A DNA stretch of 50,280 nucleotides from Candidatus Falkowiibacteriota bacterium (lineage in GTDB: Bacteria; Patescibacteriota; Patescibacteriia; Patescibacteriales; Patescibacteriaceae), in assembly GCA_903897785.1 (NCBI GenBank), contig CAIUCZ010000049.1, positions 1 to 50,280 of the forward strand, given 5' to 3'. The notes under the pieces were generated by a model. That model had not been told where the DNA came from and did no database searches. It worked only from the letters and a program-made list of their open reading frames with translations. Position numbers and translations under genes: made by a program. The stretch's first letter is position 1. Each line of letters begins with the position of its first letter. This document shows positions 5,366 to 43,011 of this stretch, piece by piece.

Positions 5366-6688
5366 TTATTTAGCTACGGTAGAGGTAACAGTCGGAAATG
5401 CAATACTATAATGCTTGCCGCTTTGCACGCCGGTCGCCGTCACGTTCAAACGCGTTGGCGTCGAGGTGCTGATCGGCACCAAGACATTGGCTTTGAAACG
5501 GCCTTGGCCGTCCGCCTTGGCAGTCAAAGTCTGATCCAAATATTGCACCTTAACACCCTCGTTAACTTCAAAGCCGCCACCGGTAATGGCATAAACATTC
5601 AACGCCGTTCTGGTCTCGCGCAAAAATAGATTCTCTGTGAAAACCGGCCGCGTATCAATCGCCATGGCCTGCGTCCAGGCAATTTTCTTTAAACTGTTAC
5701 CATCCAACACCAAGATATTGGCATTGTCAAAGACGACCAATTTTTCACTGCCATTAACCGTCACCGCTTTCAAACCCATGGCCCAACTGTTCGGTTCATA
5801 TTTGTAAGTAAAATTATAATTGACGGTTTGCAAATTATTTTTATTCATTTTGACCACGCCCACGCCGTCGGAAAAATAAATATCTTGGCCGTTTGAGGAC
5901 GGCACAACATCAAAGCCCTGATCGCCTTTGTGCGTAAAGCTGTTGACGATTTCGCCGTTCAAATTAAATTCTTTAAGCTTGTTGTCGTCGATCGCATAGA
6001 TATAATTGCTGGACGGATCAAGATAAGCGGCATGGTTGCCGTCGGTTTTGGCATAATTCAAAGAAACAACTCGCACCACTTGGCGCTGTTGCATATCAAA
6101 AACTTCCAAGGTCTTGCTGGCCGAATTGATATTGAGAATATAGCGGCTGTTATCGGCCAAACGGACGTTATAGCTGTTGTTGATGTTGGTAAAATTAAAC
6201 GTATCGATCGTGTCCAGGTTGCCGTTCCAAATCTTAATCCCCTTGGCGCCGACCGTTACAATATTGCCGTCCAGCTTGGTGATGCGGCCATACCAATCCC
6301 AAATCGGATTGGACACTTGGCGCGTCGTGGTCAAAGCCAAACCGGCCTGACTCAACGAAGTGATGTCGTAGCGATAAAAACTGGAACCGGCCGAAGCGTA
6401 AGCATACAACCGGCCGTTGCCGCCGATATCTAACAAAACATCATAAAACGGTTTTGGCTGGCCAAAGATCGGATCGTGATAGCTCAAGGTAATTACTTTG
6501 ACCAAAGTACTGCCGGACAATTTCCAAATCTCCAAATTGTTGGTGTTGGTCGTCGCCACGACCAACTGGCCGCGATAGCTGATGGCGTCACCGGCATAAT
6601 AAGACAAAGTTTTGCTGCTGGCACCCGGAATTAAAACGCCGATTGTCAGAATCAACAGAGCCAAAGCGAGAATTTTTTTCTTCATCAT
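5366..6688 (-). CDS. Secreted beta-propeller-like protein with C-terminal Ig-like domain
   Basis: About 440 residues. A signal peptide (MMKKKILALALLILTIGVLIPGASS) is followed by repeated segments such as AISYRGQLVVATT, YIYAIDDNKLKEFNLNGEIV and KLVVFDNANILVLDGNSL, typical of blades of a WD40/YVTN-like propeller. The last 90 or so residues (NVYAITGGGFEVNEGVKVQYLDQTLTAKADGQGRF in pieces) look like an Ig or carboxypeptidase-regulatory-like fold. The protein is probably exported and surface-exposed, binding a partner or glycan. An in-frame TTG lies three codons upstream (6697), but the ATG pair at 6688/6685 better fits the signal peptide. Confidence 0.75.
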   Translation of the reverse strand: MMKKKILALALLILTIGVLIPGASSKTLSYYAGDAISYRGQLVVATTNTNNLEIWKLSGSTLVKVITLSYHDPIFGQPKPFYDVLLDIGGNGRLYAYASAGSSFYRYDITSLSQAGLALTTTRQVSNPIWDWYGRITKLDGNIVTVGAKGIKIWNGNLDTIDTFNFTNINNSYNVRLADNSRYILNINSASKTLEVFDMQQRQVVRVVSLNYAKTDGNHAAYLDPSSNYIYAIDDNKLKEFNLNGEIVNSFTHKGDQGFDVVPSSNGQDIYFSDGVGVVKMNKNNLQTVNYNFTYKYEPNSWAMGLKAVTVNGSEKLVVFDNANILVLDGNSLKKIAWTQAMAIDTRPVFTENLFLRETRTALNVYAITGGGFEVNEGVKVQYLDQTLTAKADGQGRFKANVLVPISTSTPTRLNVTATGVQSGKHYSIAFPTVTSTVAK

Positions 6689-7656: not shown

Positions 7657-7670
7657 ATTTTTTCGTAGTC

Positions 7671-23892: not shown

Positions 23893-23960
23893 ACTTTATG
23901 AACTTTTAACTTCCTGCCCGAAGTGCTACGCTTAACGTTGCAGGCGGGTAAACTTTTAAC
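23893..23960. repeat. F1 units with a nested GC-rich palindrome
   Basis: TGAACTTTTAACTT is interrupted by CCTGCCCGAAGTGCTACGC...GTTGCAGGCGGG (23913-23948) and resumes as AACTTTTAACTT. Confidence 0.8.
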
Positions 23961-32217: not shown

Positions 32218-34779
32218 CTAAACTTTTTTGTCCTCAGAGGCCTTTGTTGCAAAATATCTCTCGGCAATCTCCGCTTCCACAATCTGTTTGTCGCGCCCAT
32301 ATTTTAAGCGCGACAAAGTTTTGAGCTGTTCGCTGATTTCCGGCTTTGCGATGCCAAACAACGGCCACGGGGTTTTGAGCGAGAACGGCCGCGCCGAAGT
32401 GTTATCGATTAATAACTTGACATAAGCCATACCGCGCTCCAAATTGATTAAGTCAAATTGATTGCACGGCGGATTAAATTCTTTGACCAAAAATTCGGCG
32501 TCTTCCGGGCCGATTTTAAAACTGACCAAAGTGCCGACGTTGCCAAAGACCGCGTCTTTAATGGCCGTGTTATTTTTAACCGTCAGCTGGCCGATGTATT
32601 GATGGGCCATAATCAAAGACAAACCGTATTTGCGCGCCTCGGACAGCACTTGGCAAATCGAATCGGTGGTAAAATTTTGAAACTCATCAATGTATAAATA
32701 AAAATCCTGGCGTTGGCCGGAAGGCAAATCGGCGCGCGACAAAGCCGACATCAAAATCTTACCCACCAAAATCATACCCAAAAGATAAGCGTTTAATTCG
32801 CCGACCACGCCTTTGGGCAAACTGATTAATAAAATTTTTCGCTGGTCCATCACGTCGCGCAAATTGAACGAACTTTTCTGCTGGCCGATAATCGGCCGCA
32901 TCAGATCATTGGAAATAAACGACGTCAATTTGGAAGTGATATAAGGCACGACATTGGCCAGCGCCGCATCGCCGCCGGCCTTTTCCGCTTCTTGCCGCCA
33001 AAAATCCACCACGGTGTAATCAGTGCACTTGCTTAGCTTATAATTGCGAAATGTCGGATCGGATAAAACCTTGGGAATTTCCATCAAAGTCGAACCGGAG
33101 GCCGGATCGCTCATCACCAAAAGCATGGCGTTGCGCATGTATTGTTCAAAAATCGGACCGCCGGTCGCTTTTAAATCATAAAGTTTGTCAAAAATGCCGA
33201 TCATTTCGTTGATGACAAAAGTTTTTTGCTCCGGATAGCGTTCGTCAAACTCGAGCAAATTCAAGCCCAACGGCCGCTCGCTGTCCGCCGGATTAAACAA
33301 AATAACATCTTCGGCTCGTTCCGGCGGGATGCGCTCCAAAATGTCCGCCACCAAATCGCCGTGCGGATCAAGCAAGCACAAACCATTGCCATTGATAATA
33401 TCTTGAATCGCCAGGTTAGCAAGTAAAATTGATTTCCCCACGCCGGATTTACCAACCATATACATATGCCGGCGGCGATCCGCTGATTTGATGCGCACTT
33501 CTTTTTTTGCGCCGCGATAATAATTTTCACCCAAAATCAAACCGTCCGTCGGCAAATTGACCGGAGAGGCCGCTTCTTTGGCCGACAGCCATAAGACATT
33601 GGGCGTAGCCGTCGTGGGTAAAGGCAAATGATAGAGGCTGGCCAGCTCTTCGCTATTCAATAAACAACTTTGTTCCTCGTCAAAATGCCGGGCAATAAAA
33701 TCGCTAATTACCCGCTCGCCTTGCTTTTGCCGCAGTTGGCCAAAGCTATTGCCGTATTGATAATGATTATACTGGGCAAAACTGGCTGCCAAATTGTTGA
33801 GCAGGGCTTCGGCGGCCGGACGGCTGGGTGCGCTGGCCACAATTCTGATGTTGACTTCCAATCCGGCTTTGGCATTTTTTTGCTCCATGGCTTTGACCGC
33901 GTCGGCTTCCAGTTGTGACAATTGCTTTTGCGGCTGCAGTTTATTTTTACCACTCGAATTCATGGCGCCGGCAATTTCCGCCGGCCAGGCCAACGCCTTG
34001 GCCCAAGCGTCATCTTTGATCGCTTGGCGAATCGAACCGAGTTTATGAATTTTTGTGACGAGCTTGGCCACTTTTTTATGCCAGCGCCGCGGCGCACTGC
34101 GCACGACAAACTGAATCGCCGCTCCGCTTTGCGCGTCCAATCGCCCGAGCAAATTAATCAGGTTGGCCATCTGGTCGGTATCTTCTTGCTCATAAGTTTT
34201 TAAGGGAAAAATATAATGAGCATTGGTGCGCAAACTGCCGGCCGCCACCTGGCTGCTGGGTTGAAAAATATTATAATCCGGCACGGCGGCAATGTCGGCT
34301 TCCGGATAATAAGCATGCATCGTTTGCTCCAGCAAATTCCCTTGGCTGGCCGGCGCGACCACATAAAAACAAATCGTGCCGTCGATCGCCACCAGCTCCA
34401 TAGAAAAATGATCATTGCGGCCGAACAGCCAATGGCCGATCCCCTTTTGCGAAGCAAGACCGCCAATCGCCGCCACAATCGCTTCGCTTTTGGCAATGTC
34501 GTTGCGCAAGCGCTCGGTCGGCGCGCTGGCCTGGGCTTTTTGCTCTTGCTCGGATTGATCTTTGGGCAAACGGACCAAAAAAATTTGCTGGCGCGTATAG
34601 GACAGCCGATGCAACCGATGGCGAGCGCGCTCAAACAAAACAAAGGCGATGATTAGTAAAACAACTAAACCGATAAGCCACAAAATAGCCGAGCCGTTGA
34701 ACTGCCAAGCTCCGGCCAAGCCGTTGTAGTTGCTGGGGTTATTGCCAAAGGCAAAATTGTTGGTGGAAAAATCATTCAT
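32218..34779 (-). CDS. TraG/VirB4-like type IV secretion ATPase
   Basis: The 853-residue product has a membrane helix at 32-50 and a large N-terminal part that resembles VirB4-like proteins. A RecA-type ATPase domain follows: MVGKSGVGKS Walker A (443-450), LCLLDPHGDLVADIL, FYLYIDEFQNF Walker B (693-700), and LSEARKYGLSLIMAHQYIGQL. The DPHGD and QNF motifs fit the TraD/TraG DNA-binding coupling or DUF87 group. It should drive DNA or protein transfer, or power pilus assembly. The upstream 156-residue gene overlaps its start by 8 bp, so the two are translationally coupled. Other T4SS subunits are not in the window, except a VirB2-like protein at 48 kb. Confidence 0.87.
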   Translation of the reverse strand: MNDFSTNNFAFGNNPSNYNGLAGAWQFNGSAILWLIGLVVLLIIAFVLFERARHRLHRLSYTRQQIFLVRLPKDQSEQEQKAQASAPTERLRNDIAKSEAIVAAIGGLASQKGIGHWLFGRNDHFSMELVAIDGTICFYVVAPASQGNLLEQTMHAYYPEADIAAVPDYNIFQPSSQVAAGSLRTNAHYIFPLKTYEQEDTDQMANLINLLGRLDAQSGAAIQFVVRSAPRRWHKKVAKLVTKIHKLGSIRQAIKDDAWAKALAWPAEIAGAMNSSGKNKLQPQKQLSQLEADAVKAMEQKNAKAGLEVNIRIVASAPSRPAAEALLNNLAASFAQYNHYQYGNSFGQLRQKQGERVISDFIARHFDEEQSCLLNSEELASLYHLPLPTTATPNVLWLSAKEAASPVNLPTDGLILGENYYRGAKKEVRIKSADRRRHMYMVGKSGVGKSILLANLAIQDIINGNGLCLLDPHGDLVADILERIPPERAEDVILFNPADSERPLGLNLLEFDERYPEQKTFVINEMIGIFDKLYDLKATGGPIFEQYMRNAMLLVMSDPASGSTLMEIPKVLSDPTFRNYKLSKCTDYTVVDFWRQEAEKAGGDAALANVVPYITSKLTSFISNDLMRPIIGQQKSSFNLRDVMDQRKILLISLPKGVVGELNAYLLGMILVGKILMSALSRADLPSGQRQDFYLYIDEFQNFTTDSICQVLSEARKYGLSLIMAHQYIGQLTVKNNTAIKDAVFGNVGTLVSFKIGPEDAEFLVKEFNPPCNQFDLINLERGMAYVKLLIDNTSARPFSLKTPWPLFGIAKPEISEQLKTLSRLKYGRDKQIVEAEIAERYFATKASEDKKV

Positions 34780-35242: not shown

Positions 35243-35337
35243 AAGATTATGCGTCAATTCAATTTATATTTTATATTATACAGCAAACGAGAGCACAACA
35301 CAAAAAAACAAATTATTATCGCCGTTCTTGAGGTTTG

Positions 35338-35410
35338 GTCATACCGGCGTATGCCGGTATCCAGTTTTGTTTGCATAATTCTCTGGATCCCGGCATACGC
35401 CGGGATGACA
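35338..35410. repeat. Paired REP-like element
   Basis: GTCATACCGGCGTATGCCGGTATCCAG and CTGGATCCCGGCATACGCCGGGATGAC form two hairpin arms and one long inverted repeat. The sequence differs from the 22.9-kb copy, but the architecture is the same. Confidence 0.9.
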
Positions 35411-35440
35411 TGCTACTAGAGAACTACTTGATACGACCGT

Positions 35441-35469
35441 TTGCTCCTCAAGCAAGATTTTGCTATAAT
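35441..35469 (+). promoter_or_regulatory. Promoter for a leaderless CorA-like gene
   Basis: TTGCTC (35441-35446) lies 17 bp before a perfect TATAAT (35464-35469). The ATG at 35477 is 7 bp beyond the -10, at the expected transcription start. Confidence 0.7.
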
Positions 35470-35476
35470 TAAAGTC

Positions 35477-36418
35477 ATGAACCGCAAAAAGAAAATTTCT
35501 GACAAAATTCAGCAAATCATTATTGATAATCCTCAGACTAATTACAGTTTGGAATGGTTGAACGTGGAAAACGCCGGCACTAAAGAACTGGATTATTTAC
35601 GCCAGCATTTTCATTTTAACTTTGATCACTTGAAAGCTTCCATGGCGACGGTCTTTTCCCAGCGGCCGATGGTCATGCAACAAGATAATTATCTGTTTTT
35701 GGTGTTACATTTTCCGACATTATCCGGCAAACAAATCATTGCCGGCGAAGTGGAGTTTTTTATCGGCCACGGCTTTTTGGTCAGCGTCCACAACAACAAT
35801 CTGCCGGCCTTGACCGACATGTTTACTTTGGGCAAAAAAGACGCCACCGGTTTTTTGGCTTATCAGGACGGCTCATCGGCGATTTTATTGTATGAAATTC
35901 TCGATCGCTTGATGAAGTCTTGCTACCCCCTGATCGATCACAACAGCGCCGCCATTTCCAAAGTGGACGAAGTAATTTTTTCCGGCAAACAAAAAGAAGC
36001 GGTCGCCGATTTGCTCACCTTGCGCCGCAATATTATCAACGTCAAAAAAATCATGCAAAATCATAAAAATATTTTGCAGCACTTGGTTGATTTGCGCTCC
36101 AGTATTGTCAGCCAAGAGCAAATCAAAGAAAGTTATAACCAGCTGGTGGAACATTCCAAACGCATCTGGGAAATGCTGGATAACCAAGACGACTTGCTCG
36201 ACGCTTTGGCCAAAACCAATGAATCACTGATCAGCTATCGCACCAACAATATCATGAAGACTTTGACCGTCGTCACCATCGGTCTTTACATTTTTAGTTT
36301 TACCATAAACCTCATCCACAACGGCGGCACCGAGCGAGATTTTTGGCTGATTGGCGTTTTGGCCGTGGCCATTGCCCTTGCTTTGGTGTTTGTGTTCCGC
36401 AGAAAAAAGTGGCTCTAA
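35477..36418 (+). CDS. CorA-like transporter family protein without a GMN motif
   Basis: 313 residues from the ATG at 35477. The frame has an earlier start, but the promoter overlaps it. The protein has the CorA layout: a soluble alpha/beta N-terminal domain, a long stalk helix (SKVDEVIFSGKQKEAVADLLTLRRNIINVKKIMQNH in pieces) and two C-terminal membrane helices (LTVVTIGLYIFSFTINLI and FWLIGVLAVAIALALVFVF). At the end of the first helix CorA channels carry GMN; here the sequence is FTINLIHNGG. Ion selectivity may therefore differ, or the protein may not transport Mg. The mRNA is predicted to be leaderless. Confidence 0.8.
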   Translation: MNRKKKISDKIQQIIIDNPQTNYSLEWLNVENAGTKELDYLRQHFHFNFDHLKASMATVFSQRPMVMQQDNYLFLVLHFPTLSGKQIIAGEVEFFIGHGFLVSVHNNNLPALTDMFTLGKKDATGFLAYQDGSSAILLYEILDRLMKSCYPLIDHNSAAISKVDEVIFSGKQKEAVADLLTLRRNIINVKKIMQNHKNILQHLVDLRSSIVSQEQIKESYNQLVEHSKRIWEMLDNQDDLLDALAKTNESLISYRTNNIMKTLTVVTIGLYIFSFTINLIHNGGTERDFWLIGVLAVAIALALVFVFRRKKWL

Positions 36419-36561
36419 AAAGTCGAGAGTCGTTAGCCATGAGCTGTTAGTCAAAAAATGATTTTTGCCGCGTCGTAGTCTCCCGCAGGGGGACTACGAC
36501 GCTCTTTTTTTAAACTCACCCCCAATAAGTGCAGTGAGAGACTACGACCGGGCAAAACACT

Positions 36562-36676
36562 GTCATGCCCGCGAAAGCGGGAATCCATTCAATTCGTCGC
36601 TCTATAATATCAATGGATCCCGAACCCGCGCTACGCCTTAGCTTCGGCGAGGCGAGTGAGTACTCCGGGATGACAA
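36562..36676. repeat. Composite REP-like element with nested insert
   Basis: GTCATGCCCGCGAAAGCGGGAATCCATT on the left pairs with AATGGATCCCG...CTCCGGGATGAC on the right. The right arm is split by AACCCGCGCTACGCCTTAG and CTTCGGCGAGGCGAGTGAGT. Confidence 0.85.
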
Positions 36677-36695
36677 CCTTTTCGTAAGGTCTAAA

Positions 36696-36734
36696 AATAA
36701 AAGAGAACCCTGTGACAGGTTCTCCGTTTTTTGT
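36696..36734. terminator. Terminator-like hairpin
   Basis: GAGAACC-CTGTGACA-GGTTCTC, with an A-rich left flank and CGTTTTTTG on the right, lies between convergent genes and can serve both strands. Confidence 0.75.
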
Positions 36735-36804
36735 TTTAAATTAAAGATACTAAAGATTAGACTTGCTAAATATGAGTAGCTTGTCATAAAGCGCCGTGGC
36801 ACCG

Positions 36805-37833
36805 TCAGGAATGGATATCGACTGATTTATTCGGCACAGCCTTTTGGCTAAGAAAATCAATCAACTCATGGTGCTTGTCCGGCTCAATCAATTTCTGTGT
36901 GCATCTTCCCAACAAATGCTTTAACAAATTTTTACGCATGATGTTGTGTCCGCCGCAATAAGGGCAAGCTTTGGCCGCGTCCGGATCGCCTTGTCTTTCT
37001 TTGATGATCAACCACAAAGCGTCTTTGTCTTGCGGCCACAGCGTATCAGCTTCTTTCTTCTCTTCTTTTTGCTCCACAATCGGCACGCTCGTCGGTTTTT
37101 CCGGCGCGATAACAATCGGTTGTTCAGATAAAATAATCGGTTCAACTGCGGCTGCTTTTGTTTGCTGACGTGGATATCTCCGGAAAAAAAACCGGCCGAT
37201 AATCGCCAACAAAATTACGGCGATCGCTATTGCAACCAACACGTCGCGAACTGTAGCCGCGACGCTTTTTTCCTCACTCGGCTTTGCCGCGGCTTGAATC
37301 GGTTGAAAATCAACGCGAACCTTGATTTGTCCCTCCGCTTGGACAGGTGTAAATATCACTTCGGCATGCGCATCTTTTGGCAAAATACTCGACAGAGAAT
37401 CTTTGACCAATTCGGCATAACGGCCGGCCAATGATAATTTTTGATTAAACACGCCTTGCGGTCGCACAAAAACCGAAATCATCAAATTAACATCACCCTT
37501 GATATCCTTGTTCGTTTCATCGTTGAGCAACATTTGCAAAACGCTACGCTTGAGCTTTGGATAAACTGTCGTCAAAAAATCATGATCGACCAGCGGCAAA
37601 AGAATTGTCCAGCTGACATATGATCCGGATTTAAAACCGTCGCAATAAGCGATTGCTCGCGGCCGAATCTTAATCGGTCTATTTTTAACAATCGACGGTG
37701 CTTCAACGGTCGCCGCTTGAATAGTATCAAGCGTTAAATTTGTTTCCTGTGCCCGTAGGCAATCAGGGGAAACGAGAACAAAAACAATGAGGCAAATGAT
37801 TGCCATAGCGAATGAAAAAATTGAATTTTTCAT
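36805..37833 (-). CDS. Secreted/membrane protein with C-terminal zinc-finger-like motif
   Basis: 342 residues of unknown family. A signal peptide (about 1-28) is followed by an extracytoplasmic domain (30-190) with the pattern SVLQMLLNDETNKDIKGDVNLMISVFV. A membrane helix follows (about 197-217), then a Pro/Glu-rich linker. A C-terminal module has Cys290-x2-Cys293, then His306 and Cys311, like a CCHC zinc finger on the cytoplasmic side. The protein could sense an outside signal and pass it to an inner partner. Expression signals are clean: a TTGACA/TATTTT promoter and AAAGG before the ATG. Confidence 0.7.
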   Translation of the reverse strand: MKNSIFSFAMAIICLIVFVLVSPDCLRAQETNLTLDTIQAATVEAPSIVKNRPIKIRPRAIAYCDGFKSGSYVSWTILLPLVDHDFLTTVYPKLKRSVLQMLLNDETNKDIKGDVNLMISVFVRPQGVFNQKLSLAGRYAELVKDSLSSILPKDAHAEVIFTPVQAEGQIKVRVDFQPIQAAAKPSEEKSVAATVRDVLVAIAIAVILLAIIGRFFFRRYPRQQTKAAAVEPIILSEQPIVIAPEKPTSVPIVEQKEEKKEADTLWPQDKDALWLIIKERQGDPDAAKACPYCGGHNIMRKNLLKHLLGRCTQKLIEPDKHHELIDFLSQKAVPNKSVDIHS

Positions 37834-37963
37834 GATAAAACCTTTCTCTATAAAATGTTAAACAACGGGCTTTGGGCCGTCGGTTTTGCTTCAAAAATTA
37901 TTAACTTTGAGCTCGACTTTGGCTTTGGCTTTTGGCTGATCGACCATCAATCAATCCGGTTGT

Positions 37964-37992
37964 AAAATATCATACTTAATTGATTATGTCAA
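37964..37992 (-). promoter_or_regulatory. Promoter of the zinc-finger membrane protein gene
   Basis: On the minus strand TTGACA (37987-37992) lies 17 bp before TATTTT (37964-37969). This predicts a 5' UTR of about 120 nt with repeated TTTGGCT words. Confidence 0.6.
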
Positions 37993-38078
37993 GACTAAAG
38001 CCTGTTTCCTGCGAAATTGGCTAATTTTAAGCAAAAATATTCATTATTGAATCATCCTTATCTGCCCGACCGTAACCC

Positions 38079-38108
38079 TTGACAAATATCAAGAAATCAC
38101 CGTATAAT
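38079..38108 (+). promoter_or_regulatory. Consensus promoter of the unidentified RNA
   Basis: A perfect TTGACA (38079-38084) and a perfect TATAAT (38103-38108) are separated by 18 bp. It is the only promoter in the window with both boxes perfect. Confidence 0.85.
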
Positions 38109-38224
38109 AATCTATTAAATTCATTTTGGCCGGCAACGGTCAGAGTGGTTTAACAAAAAAGGCCTTGAACCTTAACAATCAAGAAACAATAAAACAACCG
38201 ACCATAAAACTGCCAACAAATCCC

Positions 38225-38260
38225 AGCCGACAAGCAAGGCCACGGCCGACGCTTAAAGCC
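38225..38260 (+). repeat. 36-nt RNA repeat, copy 1
   Basis: Starts AGCCGACAAGCAAGGCCACG. It differs from copy 2 at one position (AAGG versus AAAG). Confidence 0.9.
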
Positions 38261-38424
38261 TGTGATGATGGCAGTCAGATTGCCAAGCAACCGCAAGCCC
38301 CTAACCCGCGATGTCGTTGATCCGATCTCTTGCTGAGACAAACGGAAAATGATCAGTGGTTTAATATATTTTAGGGAGTGAATTATCCCAAAGTTTTTCC
38401 GGTTATCAACCAAAATTATAATCA

Positions 38425-38460
38425 AGCCGACAAGCAAAGCCACGGCCGACGCTTAAAGCC
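38425..38460 (+). repeat. 36-nt RNA repeat, copy 2
   Basis: Starts AGCCGACAAGCAAAGCCACG, exactly 200 nt after copy 1. Upstream it shares a TCAACC...ATTAT context with copy 3. Confidence 0.9.
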
Positions 38461-38526
38461 AAAAAAGTCTTCTTTGATAAAGACCGCCCGGTCGACTATG
38501 ACAAATTTTATTTCAACCGCATTATT

Positions 38527-38562
38527 AAGCCTACAAGTAGAGCTACGGCCGACACTTAAAGC
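38527..38562 (+). repeat. 36-nt RNA repeat, copy 3 (diverged)
   Basis: Starts AGCCTACAAGTAGAGCTACG and ends GGCCGACACTTAAAGCT. It has about seven differences from copy 2, clustered where pairing partners could co-vary. Confidence 0.85.
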
Positions 38563-38628
38563 TGAACATCAGGGGAAAAATAAAATTATTCGTCATGGTT
38601 GCAGGACAACTTTTCTAATTTACTCAAT

Positions 38629-38660
38629 CGGCAAAAGTTAAATTTTGCCGCCCCTTTTTT
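38629..38660 (+). terminator. Terminator of the unidentified RNA
   Basis: CGGCAAAA-GTTAAA-TTTTGCCG is an 8-bp stem followed by CCCCTTTTTT. Confidence 0.8.
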
Positions 38661-38735
38661 ACCGCCCGGCTAACGGGTTAACATATATTAAATTATTTAC
38701 CCTATTTTCCAAAAAATTCTCAAAGGAGATCAATC

Positions 38736-39809
38736 ATGAAAAAAAACTTCGCCGTTATGGCATTTTTCTTTGTTATAACGAGCTGCCTGGCCGTCGCTCA
38801 AGCTCACAGCGACAACGCACCTTACATCGGCATTGATTATTTTGATTCATTGTCCGCTTGCCAGATGCTTGACTCGGTGCAAACCGCCCCTGACAATTGT
38901 TTAAAAATCCCGGAATTTTACACGGTAAAATCTGGCGACAATTTAACCAAAATCGCCGCCCTGTATAAAACGACGGTCGAAAATTTATTGGCCAACAACC
39001 CGCAGATTGCCAATCGCAACTTGATTCGTGTCGGTCAAAAATTATTGATTGACTATAATTTGCTGACTTTCTCTTGCCAGGACCAACCTATGGCCGGCAT
39101 TTGCGCCGAAGATTCGCTCTGGTCCGAGCTGAAACTCGCCTACAATTTTAATTTAAACGAAGCCAAGGCCCAGTTGATTAAAGACAAAGCGAGCGCCAGC
39201 CCAAAAGACAAAACCAACAAACGCCATCAGCAAAAAATAAACAAAAACGTCAAACCGCCCAAAATAAATCAAGCCCAAATGTCATTCTTGGACAAGGCCA
39301 AACTGCTCGGTGTCAAATTCAACGAAAACGGTTATCAACATTCTTTGCGAGAAATCGCCGAAAATTTAATACCGAAAATTCGTTACAGCCAAGACGAACG
39401 TTATCAGCTGGGCTGGGAAAAAAACAAGCAAGGCGAATACAATTTGATCATTTATCTGGATTGCTCGGCTTGCGCCAATTTCTTGCTGGCCGTCTACGGC
39501 TTGCCTTCTCCCGGCAACACTTCCGGTTCGATTTTTGCCAAAGGCGGCAAACGACAAAAACTTGATCTTGACGCTTTGCGCCCGGGTGATTTGGTCGGCT
39601 GGGTCGGTCATGTCTTGACTTATATCGGCCCCGATAAAACCGGCTCCCCGCTCTTTGCCATGGCCAGTACCGACGAAGTCGCCAAAAACAAACAAGCCTT
39701 AATTGTCGGTGTCGACTACCTGAACAAAATAAAAAATCACAAATACATGGTCAAAGTTTCTCCGGAAACACCCACCCTGGTCGCCACTAACGCCAAGGTG
39801 CAAAAATGA
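38736..39809 (+). CDS. Secreted LysM and NlpC/P60-like peptidoglycan hydrolase
   Basis: 357 residues. A signal peptide (1-23) is followed by one LysM peptidoglycan-binding domain (about 62-106, [24 protein letters not shown]), a Lys-rich linker and an NlpC/P60-type papain-like domain. Candidate catalytic residues are Cys243 in [10 protein letters not shown] and His292 in GWVGHVLTY. Such enzymes cut peptide cross-links in the wall. AAAGGAG precedes the ATG at good spacing. It lies 76 bp downstream of the unidentified RNA terminator and ends in its own terminator. Confidence 0.88.
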
Positions 39810-39817
39810 ACGCAAAA

Positions 39818-39855
39818 TTAAAAGCCCTCACGATCTATCGGAGGGCTTTTCTATT
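39818..39855. terminator. Terminator between the LysM hydrolase gene and dus
   Basis: AAAAGCCCTC and GAGGGCTTTT form a 10-bp stem with an 11-base loop. T-runs on both strands make it bidirectional. Confidence 0.88.
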
Positions 39856-39857
39856 AC

Positions 39858-40823
39858 TCAATTTCCTGTTTGCAAAATTTCTTTTACTTCGGCCAAGCTG
39901 TTTGTCTGCAATAATTTTATTTTCAAGGCTTTTGCTTCCGGCCGGCCGGCCAAATACCAGCCCAAGTGTTTTCTAAACTCCACAAAATGTTGGCCAGCAA
40001 AAAATTCTTCAAACATTTGACCATGCTCCAGCGCCAGGTCGATTATTTTTTTTAAATCTTGCGGCTTGCCAACGCCGCCGTTTAATTCGGCAAACAGCCA
40101 AGGGTTACCCAGCACGCCGCGCGCCAAACCCAAACCATCCGCTTCGGTTTTTTCTAAAATATTTTTTGCTTCGGCCAAATTATTAATTGCGCCATTGGCC
40201 AAAATCACGCCGCCAAAAACTTGCCTGGCATTTTTAATCATCTCAGTGTCAATCGGTCCGGCAAAACCTTGCGCCAGCGTCCGGCCGTGAATCATCACCG
40301 CGCTGATGTCCAGATCGCTCATCGCCTCGAGCCAGGTCAAAGCATCGACATCCTTGGCACCCGCCCGGATTTTCACCGACACCGGCAAGTCGGTATTATC
40401 CAACACCGCCTTAATCACCGCGTGCGATTTTTTAACGTCAACAAACAAGGCCGAGCCCGCGCCTTGTTTTAATACTTTGGGCACCGGGCAACCAAAATTA
40501 ATGTCAATGCCGGAGATAAGTTGAAAGTTAAAAGTTGAAAGTTGAAAGTCGGTTTGATTGGTTAATAATTTCACGGCATCGGCAAACTGCTTTGGCTCCA
40601 CACCAAACAGTTGCACAATATATGGAGACTCCTCCTCTGTCGCGCGCAACAATTCCAAAGTTTTTTCCGGCCGGTGCGTCAACGCGGCGACGCTGGCCAT
40701 TTCGCTATACAAAACAGCAGCGCCGAATCTTTTGCAGATGCGGCGAAAAGGCGAATCGGTGATGCCGGCCATGGGGGCTAGGGCGTAGATTGGTCGTAGC
40801 AGGTTATGCCAAAAATTTAACAT
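39858..40823 (-). CDS. dus: tRNA-dihydrouridine synthase with in-frame repeat insertion
   Basis: Dus reduces uridines of tRNA D-loops with FMN and NAD(P)H. The 321-residue product has YALAPMAGITDSPFRRICKRFGA, EMASVAAL, IDINFGCPVPKVLKQGAGSAL with catalytic Cys112, PVSVKIRAG, VMIHGRTLAQGF, ANGAIN and GLGLARGVLGNPWLF. Residues 92-102 (DFQLSTFNFQL) are encoded by AAAGTTG-type heptamers identical to the spacer arrays (40515-40550). They sit in the loop between helix ADAVKLL and the strand GIDINFG. The fold should tolerate this surface insertion. Confidence 0.95.
   Translation of the reverse strand: MLNFWHNLLRPIYALAPMAGITDSPFRRICKRFGAAVLYSEMASVAALTHRPEKTLELLRATEEESPYIVQLFGVEPKQFADAVKLLTNQTDFQLSTFNFQLISGIDINFGCPVPKVLKQGAGSALFVDVKKSHAVIKAVLDNTDLPVSVKIRAGAKDVDALTWLEAMSDLDISAVMIHGRTLAQGFAGPIDTEMIKNARQVFGGVILANGAINNLAEAKNILEKTEADGLGLARGVLGNPWLFAELNGGVGKPQDLKKIIDLALEHGQMFEEFFAGQHFVEFRKHLGWYLAGRPEAKALKIKLLQTNSLAEVKEILQTGN
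40515..40550. repeat. F1 heptamers inside dus
   Basis: AAGTTGAAAGTTAAAAGTTG and a following GAAAGTTGAAAGT lie in frame within dus. They match the arrays at 703 and 11349. Confidence 0.9.
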
Positions 40824-40880
40824 GGAATTTGGAATTTAGAATCTGGAATTTGGAACAAAATCCAAAGTTCAAAATTCAAA
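40824..40880. repeat. F3/F4 units upstream of dus
   Basis: GGAATTTGGAATTTAGAATC, then TCCAAAGTTCAAAATTCAAAT, with a small CCGCCCGCTGGCGG palindrome after them. Confidence 0.8.
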
Positions 40881-40935
40881 TCCGCCCGCTGGCGGAGTGG
40901 AGGCCATAAATGTCTACTGACAATAATAAAACGAA

Positions 40936-41391
40936 TTAAACTCTATCTGCCGTCAAAACTAATTTAACATGATCATGCTGATGGCCGGGATCAAACTCGG
41001 TAAATTTTTCAACTTTAATATTTTTAAATTTTTCTTGAAAATAAACTTGCAACTCTTCTGCGGAAAATCCCTTAGCGCCAAGCACTTGATCGGATTTATC
41101 AAAAGTTTGAATCAATAATTTCCCGCCCTGTCTTAAATTATTAAAACAAGCCAAAACAAACTCTTCTTTATTTTTAATAAATTGAAACACAAAATTAGAA
41201 TAAACAAAATCAAACAGTTGATCAGCTTTATAAGACAAGTTCAAATCAACTTCCGGCAAATCAACGCCAAAGGCAGACCAGCCCAATTGTTTTAAAGCCG
41301 CCACATCAACACCCTTGCCACAGCCTAAATCCAAAGCCGCGCCCGGCGCGGGAAAATTATGCTCAACAAAATTGGCTAAATATTTATTCAT
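40936..41391 (-). CDS. Class I SAM-dependent methyltransferase
   Basis: The 151-residue product is a minimal Rossmann methyltransferase: ALDLGCGKGVDVAAL (motif I), FGVDLPEVDLN (acidic residue that holds the ribose), FDFVYSNFVFQFI (motif IV region) and LRQGGKLLIQTFD. The substrate cannot be read; it resembles the tellurite-resistance TehB and ubiquinone-methyltransferase-like small enzymes. It lies 30 bp downstream of cysS on the same strand and may share its transcript. Confidence 0.85.
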   Translation of the reverse strand: MNKYLANFVEHNFPAPGAALDLGCGKGVDVAALKQLGWSAFGVDLPEVDLNLSYKADQLFDFVYSNFVFQFIKNKEEFVLACFNNLRQGGKLLIQTFDKSDQVLGAKGFSAEELQVYFQEKFKNIKVEKFTEFDPGHQHDHVKLVLTADRV

Positions 41392-41421
41392 TATGGTAAT
41401 TCTTAATTCTTCATTTTTAAT

Positions 41422-42843
41422 TTACTTGTACCTGATTTTTGTCTCCTCTTTCGTGTCCTCAATCGCAAAGCCCAGCTCCGCCAATTTATCGCGCAACCGG
41501 TCCGACTCGGCCCAATTCTTGTCAGCCCGCGATTGCAGCCGAGCTCGAAAAATTTCTTGGACCTCTTTCGGCAAATCTTCTGTATTTAAACTTAGAGCTG
41601 TCTTTAAATTTAAGCCCAGCACTCGGTCAAAATCCAAAACAGTGGCTAACTTTTCATCATCAGACAAGTCAGATTTTAAAACTTCTTGAAAAACAGCTAA
41701 CGCTTGCGCTGCGTTCAAATCGTCATTAACGGCGTTTAAAAATTTTTCTTTATATTCGTCATTCGCAATTTTTAATTCATAATTTTTAATTTTTAATTCT
41801 CGCACTTGATTATACAAATGCTCCAGACTGTTCTGCGCCGTTATTAAACTCTCCTCGCCATATTCCATGGGCTTGCGATAATGCACCTGCAAGGCGCTCA
41901 AGCGATAAACCAAAGGATTAATCTGCCGGTCCAATAAACCTTTTTGCAAAGTTAAAAAATTGTCATCGCTCTTGGCCATTTTTTTGCCGCCGGCAATATT
42001 TAAAAACGCGCCATGCAGCCAATAATTAAAAAACTTTTTGCCGGTCGCCGCTTCGCTTTGAGCGATCTCGTTGGTGTGGTGGACATTAATATGATCAATG
42101 CCGCCGCAATGAATATCCAGCCGCTGCCCCAAATATTTCAAACTCATAGCCGAACACTCAACATGCCAGCCGGGAAAACCGACGCCCCACGGGCTATCCC
42201 ATTCCATTTGGCGCCTGCCCTGAGCGGAGTCGAAGGGTTCTCCATCTTTAAAACTAAATTTCCACAAAGCAAAATCGGTCGGATTTTTCTTCTCTTCATT
42301 TTTTTCCACCCGCGCGCCTTCTTTCAGCTCATCCAGTTTCAAGTGGCTCAGTTTGTTGTAATCTTTGACTTTGGCCGTGTCAAAATAAACGCCGTCCGAA
42401 GTTTTGTAAGTAAAGCCCTTGTCTTCCAAAACTTTAATCAAATCAATTTGTTCTTGAATATTGTCGGTGGCTTTGCACCAAATGGTCGGCTCCAGGATAT
42501 TTAACGCCGCCAGGTCTTTTTTTAAAGCGTCGGTATAAAATTGGGCAATCTCCCAGGCGCTTTTGTGCTCGCGACGGGCACCGAGTTCTAATTTGTCCTC
42601 GCCCATATCCATATCACCCGTCAAATGGCCGACATCAGTGATATTCATCACATGCTTGACGTCATAGCCATTGTAAAGCAAAACTCGTTTGAGCAAATCT
42701 TCAAACAAGTAGGTGCGCAAATTGCCCAAATGGGCATAGTTATAAACCGTCGGCCCGCAAGTATATAATCCGACCTGACCGGCGACGATCGGTTTAAACT
42801 CCTCCTTTTTGAGGGACAATGTGTTGTATAGAAATATAGACAT
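41422..42843 (-). CDS. cysS: Cysteinyl-tRNA synthetase with two in-frame repeat insertions
   Basis: CysS charges tRNA-Cys. The product has 473 residues from the ATG at 42843; the frame extends upstream into spacer repeats. It has the HIGH-like YNYAHLGN, zinc ligand Cys29, GWHVECSAM (Cys230), DHINVHHTNE (His255, Glu259), and KMAKS (288-292). Two surface loops contain spacer-repeat sequence. FDSAQGRRQ (204-212), just before WDSPWG, is encoded by a CCTGAGCGGAGTCGAAGGG element. KIKNYELKIANDE (351-363) is encoded by AATTTTTAATTC units. Both keep the frame. The C-terminal domain is complete. Confidence 0.95.
   Translation of the reverse strand: MSIFLYNTLSLKKEEFKPIVAGQVGLYTCGPTVYNYAHLGNLRTYLFEDLLKRVLLYNGYDVKHVMNITDVGHLTGDMDMGEDKLELGARREHKSAWEIAQFYTDALKKDLAALNILEPTIWCKATDNIQEQIDLIKVLEDKGFTYKTSDGVYFDTAKVKDYNKLSHLKLDELKEGARVEKNEEKKNPTDFALWKFSFKDGEPFDSAQGRRQMEWDSPWGVGFPGWHVECSAMSLKYLGQRLDIHCGGIDHINVHHTNEIAQSEAATGKKFFNYWLHGAFLNIAGGKKMAKSDDNFLTLQKGLLDRQINPLVYRLSALQVHYRKPMEYGEESLITAQNSLEHLYNQVRELKIKNYELKIANDEYKEKFLNAVNDDLNAAQALAVFQEVLKSDLSDDEKLATVLDFDRVLGLNLKTALSLNTEDLPKEVQEIFRARLQSRADKNWAESDRLRDKLAELGFAIEDTKEETKIRYK
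41765..41809. repeat. F5 octamers inside cysS
   Basis: GCAATTTTTAATTCATAATT and the following TTTAATTTTTAATTC are in frame and encode an ELKIKNYELKI-type segment. Confidence 0.85.
42213..42243. repeat. CCTGAGCGGAGTCGAAGG element inside cysS
   Basis: GCCTGCCCTGAGCGGAGTCG followed by AAGGGTTC encodes EPFDSAQGR. This word is a widely dispersed bacterial repeat; here it lies in frame within a conserved enzyme. Confidence 0.8.
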
Positions 42844-42847
42844 AAAT

Positions 42848-43011
42848 TTAATACGAATGTTACGAATTAAACCCGCCTGCCGGCGAGGCACGGTCCGAAT
42901 ACCACGAATTGATTACGAATTCGTTCCGCCGGCCGGCGGATTCGCATTCATTCGTAGTGTATACCAATTGCGATGGCAGAAGTAACCCCAACGTAATTCG
43001 TAACATTCGTA
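42848..43011. repeat. F2 array with palindromes and one variable-core module
   Basis: CGAATGTTACGAATT units carry a nested CCCGCCTGCCGGCGAGGCA (42871-42890) and a CGCCGGCCGGCG palindrome (42926-42938). Then comes a plus-strand ATTCGTAGTGT-N18-GAAGTAACCCCAACGTAATT module (about 42951-43010). Confidence 0.8.

Follow-up and report, generated by a model that had tools for sequence, protein, structure and literature searches.

RNAs of the CsrB/RsmZ type titrate a protein by means of repeated hairpins with GGA in the loop, which are bound by CsrA/RsmA. RNA leaders are known to control LysM-type wall proteins; the c-di-AMP (ydaO) riboswitch is one of them. The large ornate RNAs of bacteria, for example env-120 ROOL with 659 nt and OLE with about 600 nt (PMC12286853), are, of the known kinds, closest in size and appearance to the locus presented here. 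This locus was found in a window of 50,280 nucleotides, the whole stretch of DNA that was analysed, from a Candidatus Falkowiibacteriota bacterium, whose lineage is one with few known non-coding RNAs. Its three repeats lie in the roughly 0.9 kb between two divergently oriented genes; its features are presented in Table 1. The locus is best explained as a non-coding RNA gene that stands alone, is specific to its lineage and measures about 548 nt, a reading to which we give an even chance. No description of an RNA like this candidate was found in the literature.

Table 1. Features of the candidate RNA locus and its neighbour genes (window coordinates)
Feature	Position	Strand	Remarks
Divergent upstream gene, orphan membrane protein	36805..37833	-	one weak family match only
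Sigma-70 type promoter TTGACA-N18-TATAAT	38079..38108	+	12/12 consensus positions
Inferred transcript of the candidate RNA	38113..38660	+	about 548 nt; start from the -10 box, end from the U-tract (exact ends inferred)
5' hairpin with GCAA (GNRA) tetraloop	38115..38153	+	z -4.0; 41-nt core z -5.6
Closing helix	38155..38162 with 38653..38660	+	AAAAAAGG with CCUUUUUU; predicted, mean pair probability 0.91
Arm A, stem ACUGCCA/UGGCAGU around repeat 1	38209..38275	+	stem 38209-38215/38269-38275
Repeat 1, two-fold-symmetric hairpin	38225..38260	+	reference copy, 100%
Hairpin B	38306..38359	+	predicted fold; no repeat inside
Long-range helix around repeats 2 and 3	38376..38625	+	GAGUGAAUUA/UAAUUUACUC; 38376-38385 with 38616-38625, pair probability 0.95
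Repeat 2 arm, UAUCAA/UUGAUA + CGGU/ACCG	38400..38486	+	alternative fold; 38404-38409/38474-38479
Repeat 2	38425..38460	+	97% identical; strands agree 11/11 outside complementary N4
Arm C, 9-bp + 10-bp stem around repeat 3	38494..38600	+	38494-38513/38578-38600
Repeat 3	38528..38563	+	81% identical; seven changes vs repeat 1; UACG loop
Terminator-like hairpin and U-tract	38629..38660	+	8-bp stem 38629-38650, then CCCC, then six T to 38660
Downstream gene, LysM protein with signal peptide	38736..39809	+	start 76 nt past the terminator

An earlier, sequence-only reading of this DNA had placed a perfect promoter before the region and an intrinsic terminator behind it, and both are borne out (Table 1). 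Perfect TTGACA/TATAAT promoters with a spacer of 16-19 nt occur just seven times in the 869-kb assembly of 78 contigs, the candidate locus included. Three of the others precede infA-rpmJ-rpsM, secE-nusG-rplK and tRNA-Asn (the gene names were assigned by eye from the translations), and another match sits near the 3' end of an open reading frame. The promoters before infA-rpsM, secE-nusG-rplK and tRNA-Asn suggest that this form is the organism's consensus for its most expressed genes. The candidate locus shares this type of promoter, so its strong transcription is plausible. For a genome of 0.87 Mb, maintaining an RNA of 548 nt behind a promoter that ranks among its strongest is costly. The terminator hairpin has pair probabilities of 0.86-1.0 in the ensemble of the whole RNA, and no partner competing with it is predicted there. 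The U-tract starts four C residues after the stem, so that termination at 38660 may be leaky.

The three 36-nt repeats, also described before, are confirmed. They start 200 and 103 nt apart, with intervening spacers of 164 and 67 nt, and all copies lie within 340 nt. The repeat folds as a hairpin AGC-CKAC-AAGY-ARR-GC-YACG-GC-CGAC-RCUU-AAA-GCY, with CACG or UACG loops and no GGA within the repeat. Both strands of this hairpin read GC-CKAC-N4-ARR-GC. Outside N4 the identity between the strands is 10/11, 11/11 and 9/11 for repeats 1, 2 and 3, respectively. The N4 segment differs between the strands yet is complementary in all three copies (AAGC/GCUU, AAGU/ACUU). At the DNA level the paired half-elements GCCKAC-N4-ARRGC are direct repeats 19 nt apart, six in total, and the two halves of the repeat could have been made by a 19-nt tandem duplication. 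Only N4 would then have diverged, and into complements, which points to a paired RNA. With a self-complementary helix in the middle and the same element on both strands, each hairpin would have two equivalent internal loops. This symmetry, and the enclosure of each copy in a stem of its own, were missed by the sequence-only reading.

Between repeats 2 and 3 there are six differences; all eight pairs are kept, and one of them changes from C-G to U-A. Random substitution retains all eight pairs of repeat 3 in 7-14% of trials, and a shuffle control of the pair counts was not significant (170/500); the pair retention is weak evidence for an RNA structure. The repeat was found nowhere else in this genome by the repeat covariance model and sequence scans, and no further hairpin of this symmetric type was found in this genome or in the relative G012. 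The confinement to one locus contrasts with the dispersed intergenic repeats of the same genome.

The stems that enclose the three repeats are mutually unrelated in sequence. The complementarity of the repeat flanks was compared with that of shuffled flanks, giving p-values of 0.016, 0.052 and 0.006 for repeats 1, 2 and 3; with random sites of the window as the reference, the three copies together give a joint P of 0.015. The arm around repeat 2 is absent from the minimum-energy fold. A fold forced to hold all three repeat hairpins and this arm has an energy of -133.9 kcal/mol versus -138.4 kcal/mol for the free fold, a cost of 4.5 kcal/mol. The GNRA-capped 5' hairpin of the sequence-only reading is recovered with a favorable z-value (Table 1). 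The whole region has a z of -3.3 to -3.5 relative to shuffles when the plus strand is folded, and of -1.6 for the minus strand. On the same scale, 52 other 548-nt stretches of the window have a mean of -2.0 with a standard deviation of 2.2, and several are much lower. The very low background values are probably due to palindromic repeats and tRNAs. The z-value of the whole region lies within this background, and therefore folding energy alone is insufficient for the case of a structured RNA.

The search of the locus against Rfam 15 (4227 covariance models) gave no match at the gathering score, in agreement with the earlier statement that it could not be matched to common bacterial RNAs. On the plus strand there was nothing even at E<=5, and the four weak matches on the minus strand (E 0.7-4.3) are unrelated. 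The covariance model of the repeat has no credible match in the genomes covered, 111 from the order and 380 from the class. Five weak matches (E 0.007-0.044 per genome) were rejected, the best one being inside a 725-aa ORF. Two palindromic repeat copies by tRNA-like sequence in the relative G290 share mainly the UUCG/UACG-capped core and were judged convergent. The spacer in question (positions 1300-2000 of locus L023) is rich in tRNAs and contains tandem partial tRNA-like copies with palindromes such as TGCCTACGCTAAAGCTTCGGCCGACAGGCA. A blastn search that covered 98 relatives plus 380 genomes from the phylum gave two short matches only, both judged to be due to chance: 28 nt in an A-rich stretch beside a start codon (G053) and 38 nt in G524. 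An exact pattern search of 84,980 species genomes gave one 21-nt match, apparently in coding sequence, on a GC-rich Gemmataceae contig (L012), also judged chance. No homologue was found in plasmids, phages and viral contigs, or in about 1,000 related genomes in all; the family sample consists of twelve members, all of other genera than that of the host.

The non-coding gaps of this genome and of G012 were scanned for a like architecture, and no second locus was recognised. One region considered as such, L104 (contig 54 of this assembly, 6158-6620), proved to be an ORF enclosed by a partial tRNA duplication. This minus-strand ORF (6264-6641) is GIY-YIG-like by eye and adjoins a tRNA, which is partly duplicated 335 nt away. 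It is a possible homing-type insertion with a partial tRNA copy. As no homologue of the candidate RNA was found, there is no independent covariation for it. The novelty of the RNA holds for everything searched. The claim that it is structured is partly upheld, the folding energy being ordinary for the window and the repeats having one compensatory pair.

The genomic setting of the locus differs from that of the one relative examined, G012. There, the distance on one contig between CysS and the homologous part of the gene at 34772 is about 0.3 kb, and a VirB4-like ATPase follows. In the present genome those three genes stand apart by a block of about 6 kb (35258-41421), which contains CorA, the orphan minus-strand gene, the candidate RNA, the LysM gene, Dus and a methyltransferase. 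The block is missing between the same neighbour genes of G012, and its G+C content is not deviant. It was either gained here or lost in G012. The locus therefore belongs to a block that is variable among genera, and this fits the absence of homologues. No match to the LysM protein was found in the family. Its C-terminus resembles a Cys/His hydrolase (DCSACANF..., by eye only; no Pfam match).

Several other sequence elements were observed in the window. The CysS gene (41422-42891) has an in-frame insert of about 8 aa (...EPFDSAQGRR...) that the G012 homologue lacks; by its look, a palindromic repeat has entered this coding sequence. An ORF antisense to the gene contains ALSGVEGF, a similar string. 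A dispersed palindromic element, GTCATCCCCGCGTATGCGGGGATC, has four copies at window positions 7668, 22873, 35338 and 36562. Another dispersed palindrome, CCTGCCCG...TGCTACGC..GCGTTGCAGGCGGG, is found near gene boundaries at 23904, 27961, 30617 and 30643. AT-rich AAAGTTATAAAGTTCATAAAGTT repeats occur at 723, 2388, 11606, 15942, 20792 and other positions; they are often arranged as inverted pairs in intergenic spacers.

Other explanations of the locus have to be considered. Open frames of 64 and 87 aa span the repeats, and 36 nt is a usual length for a CRISPR repeat, which might suggest a degenerate protein gene or a CRISPR remnant. This is very improbable. The three ORFs overlapping the region (64, 87 and 97 aa) have codon scores of -0.17, -0.14 and -0.16, compared with a mean of -0.11 (standard deviation 0.25) for spurious ORFs and 0.11 to 0.54 for real neighbouring genes. 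The two plus-strand ORFs have no Pfam match, and the reading frame differs among the repeats; on both counts, the lack of a credible gene and the differing frames, the sequence-only reading was right. The spacers between the copies are irregular for a CRISPR array, which would have regular short ones, and complementary stems flank each repeat. A dispersed REP-like element was rejected as well, there being three copies only, all at one place. Less probable still is an unrecognised housekeeping RNA, with RNase P RNA as the candidate. Bacterial RNase P RNA of type A (RF00010) was not found in this 96% complete assembly, although the model passes its cut-off in 27 of the 31 genomes searched. However, three other drafts are also without a match, so that an assembly gap is the likely reason for its absence here. 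The relatives in the family carry canonical type A RNA, whereas the candidate locus does not match RF00010 even at E<=5, and for the RNase P core (CR-I GAGGAAAGTCC, CR-IV and CR-V) it gives only partial motif matches, the best such as 10/15 for GAGGAAAGTCCGGGC. The tmRNA gene of this genome is located elsewhere (C31:7375-7764), and ARAGORN detected no tmRNA within the window.

The main rival is a long 5' leader of the LysM gene, that is, a cis-acting attenuator whose three hairpins would sense a protein or ligand and allow read-through. It owes this rank to the lack of any promoter of at least 9/12 between the terminator and the LysM start codon. In addition, the gene shares the strand of the terminator, follows it directly and has a strong ribosome-binding site, AAAGGAG. 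However, the terminator hairpin is unopposed in the ensemble, leaving no antiterminator visible, 548 nt is very long for a leader, and no riboswitch family of Rfam matches. This function is possible but somewhat doubtful. The locus might also act at the level of DNA, either as six direct GCCKAC-N4-ARRGC elements bound by a DNA-binding protein or as three small palindromic mobile elements in an otherwise non-functional spacer. Dispersed intergenic repeats are abundant in this genome and the halves of each repeat are direct repeats, which would agree with such a role. It appears unlikely, since there is no copy elsewhere in the genome, the N4 halves differ in all copies exactly so as to be complementary, and the copies are enclosed by unrelated stems.

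A stand-alone structured RNA is supported by the class of the promoter, the lack of a coding signal and of an Rfam match, and the symmetric hairpin held in three stems. At the sequence level the locus has its own promoter and a terminator-like end, and the plus strand folds better than the minus strand relative to shuffles. In the mechanism that we propose, the strong consensus promoter would drive a non-coding RNA from 38113 to 38660, which is predicted to close into a multi-arm fold with its 5' and 3' ends paired. Every repeat hairpin would form the tip of a separate arm, and the RNA would thereby probably present three (six half) binding sites. It would act as a scaffold or titrating sponge for an RNA-binding protein, probably dimeric, or dock to its own copies. 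This role, judged from the anatomy of the RNA, is doubtful. We propose only tentatively a new class of large RNA, in which a module of symmetric hairpins with paired identical internal loops binds a new dimeric protein or its own copies. If transcribed, it would be a large orphan RNA carrying a symmetric motif in several copies, and a good candidate for a new RNA-protein or RNA-RNA assembly.

The comparison with known systems can now be made in detail. The candidate resembles the ydaO/c-di-AMP leaders in having a terminator-like element upstream of a same-strand LysM gene, but it has no Rfam riboswitch match and no alternative antiterminator is predicted. As in CsrB/RsmZ, several copies of one hairpin multiply a site within one RNA. 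However, the hairpin of the candidate is longer and symmetric, with internal loops, and has no known binding protein; a sponge of this type was rejected, as the repeats lack GGA-loop sites. The candidate differs from OLE, ROOL and GOLLD in that it has no sequence or covariance-model match to them, belongs to no conserved family and is not near a phage or tRNA island. It is similar to these RNAs in size class, multi-arm fold, intergenic location, lack of coding and presumed abundance (PMC12286853), and its self-complementary elements could likewise allow RNA-RNA contacts.
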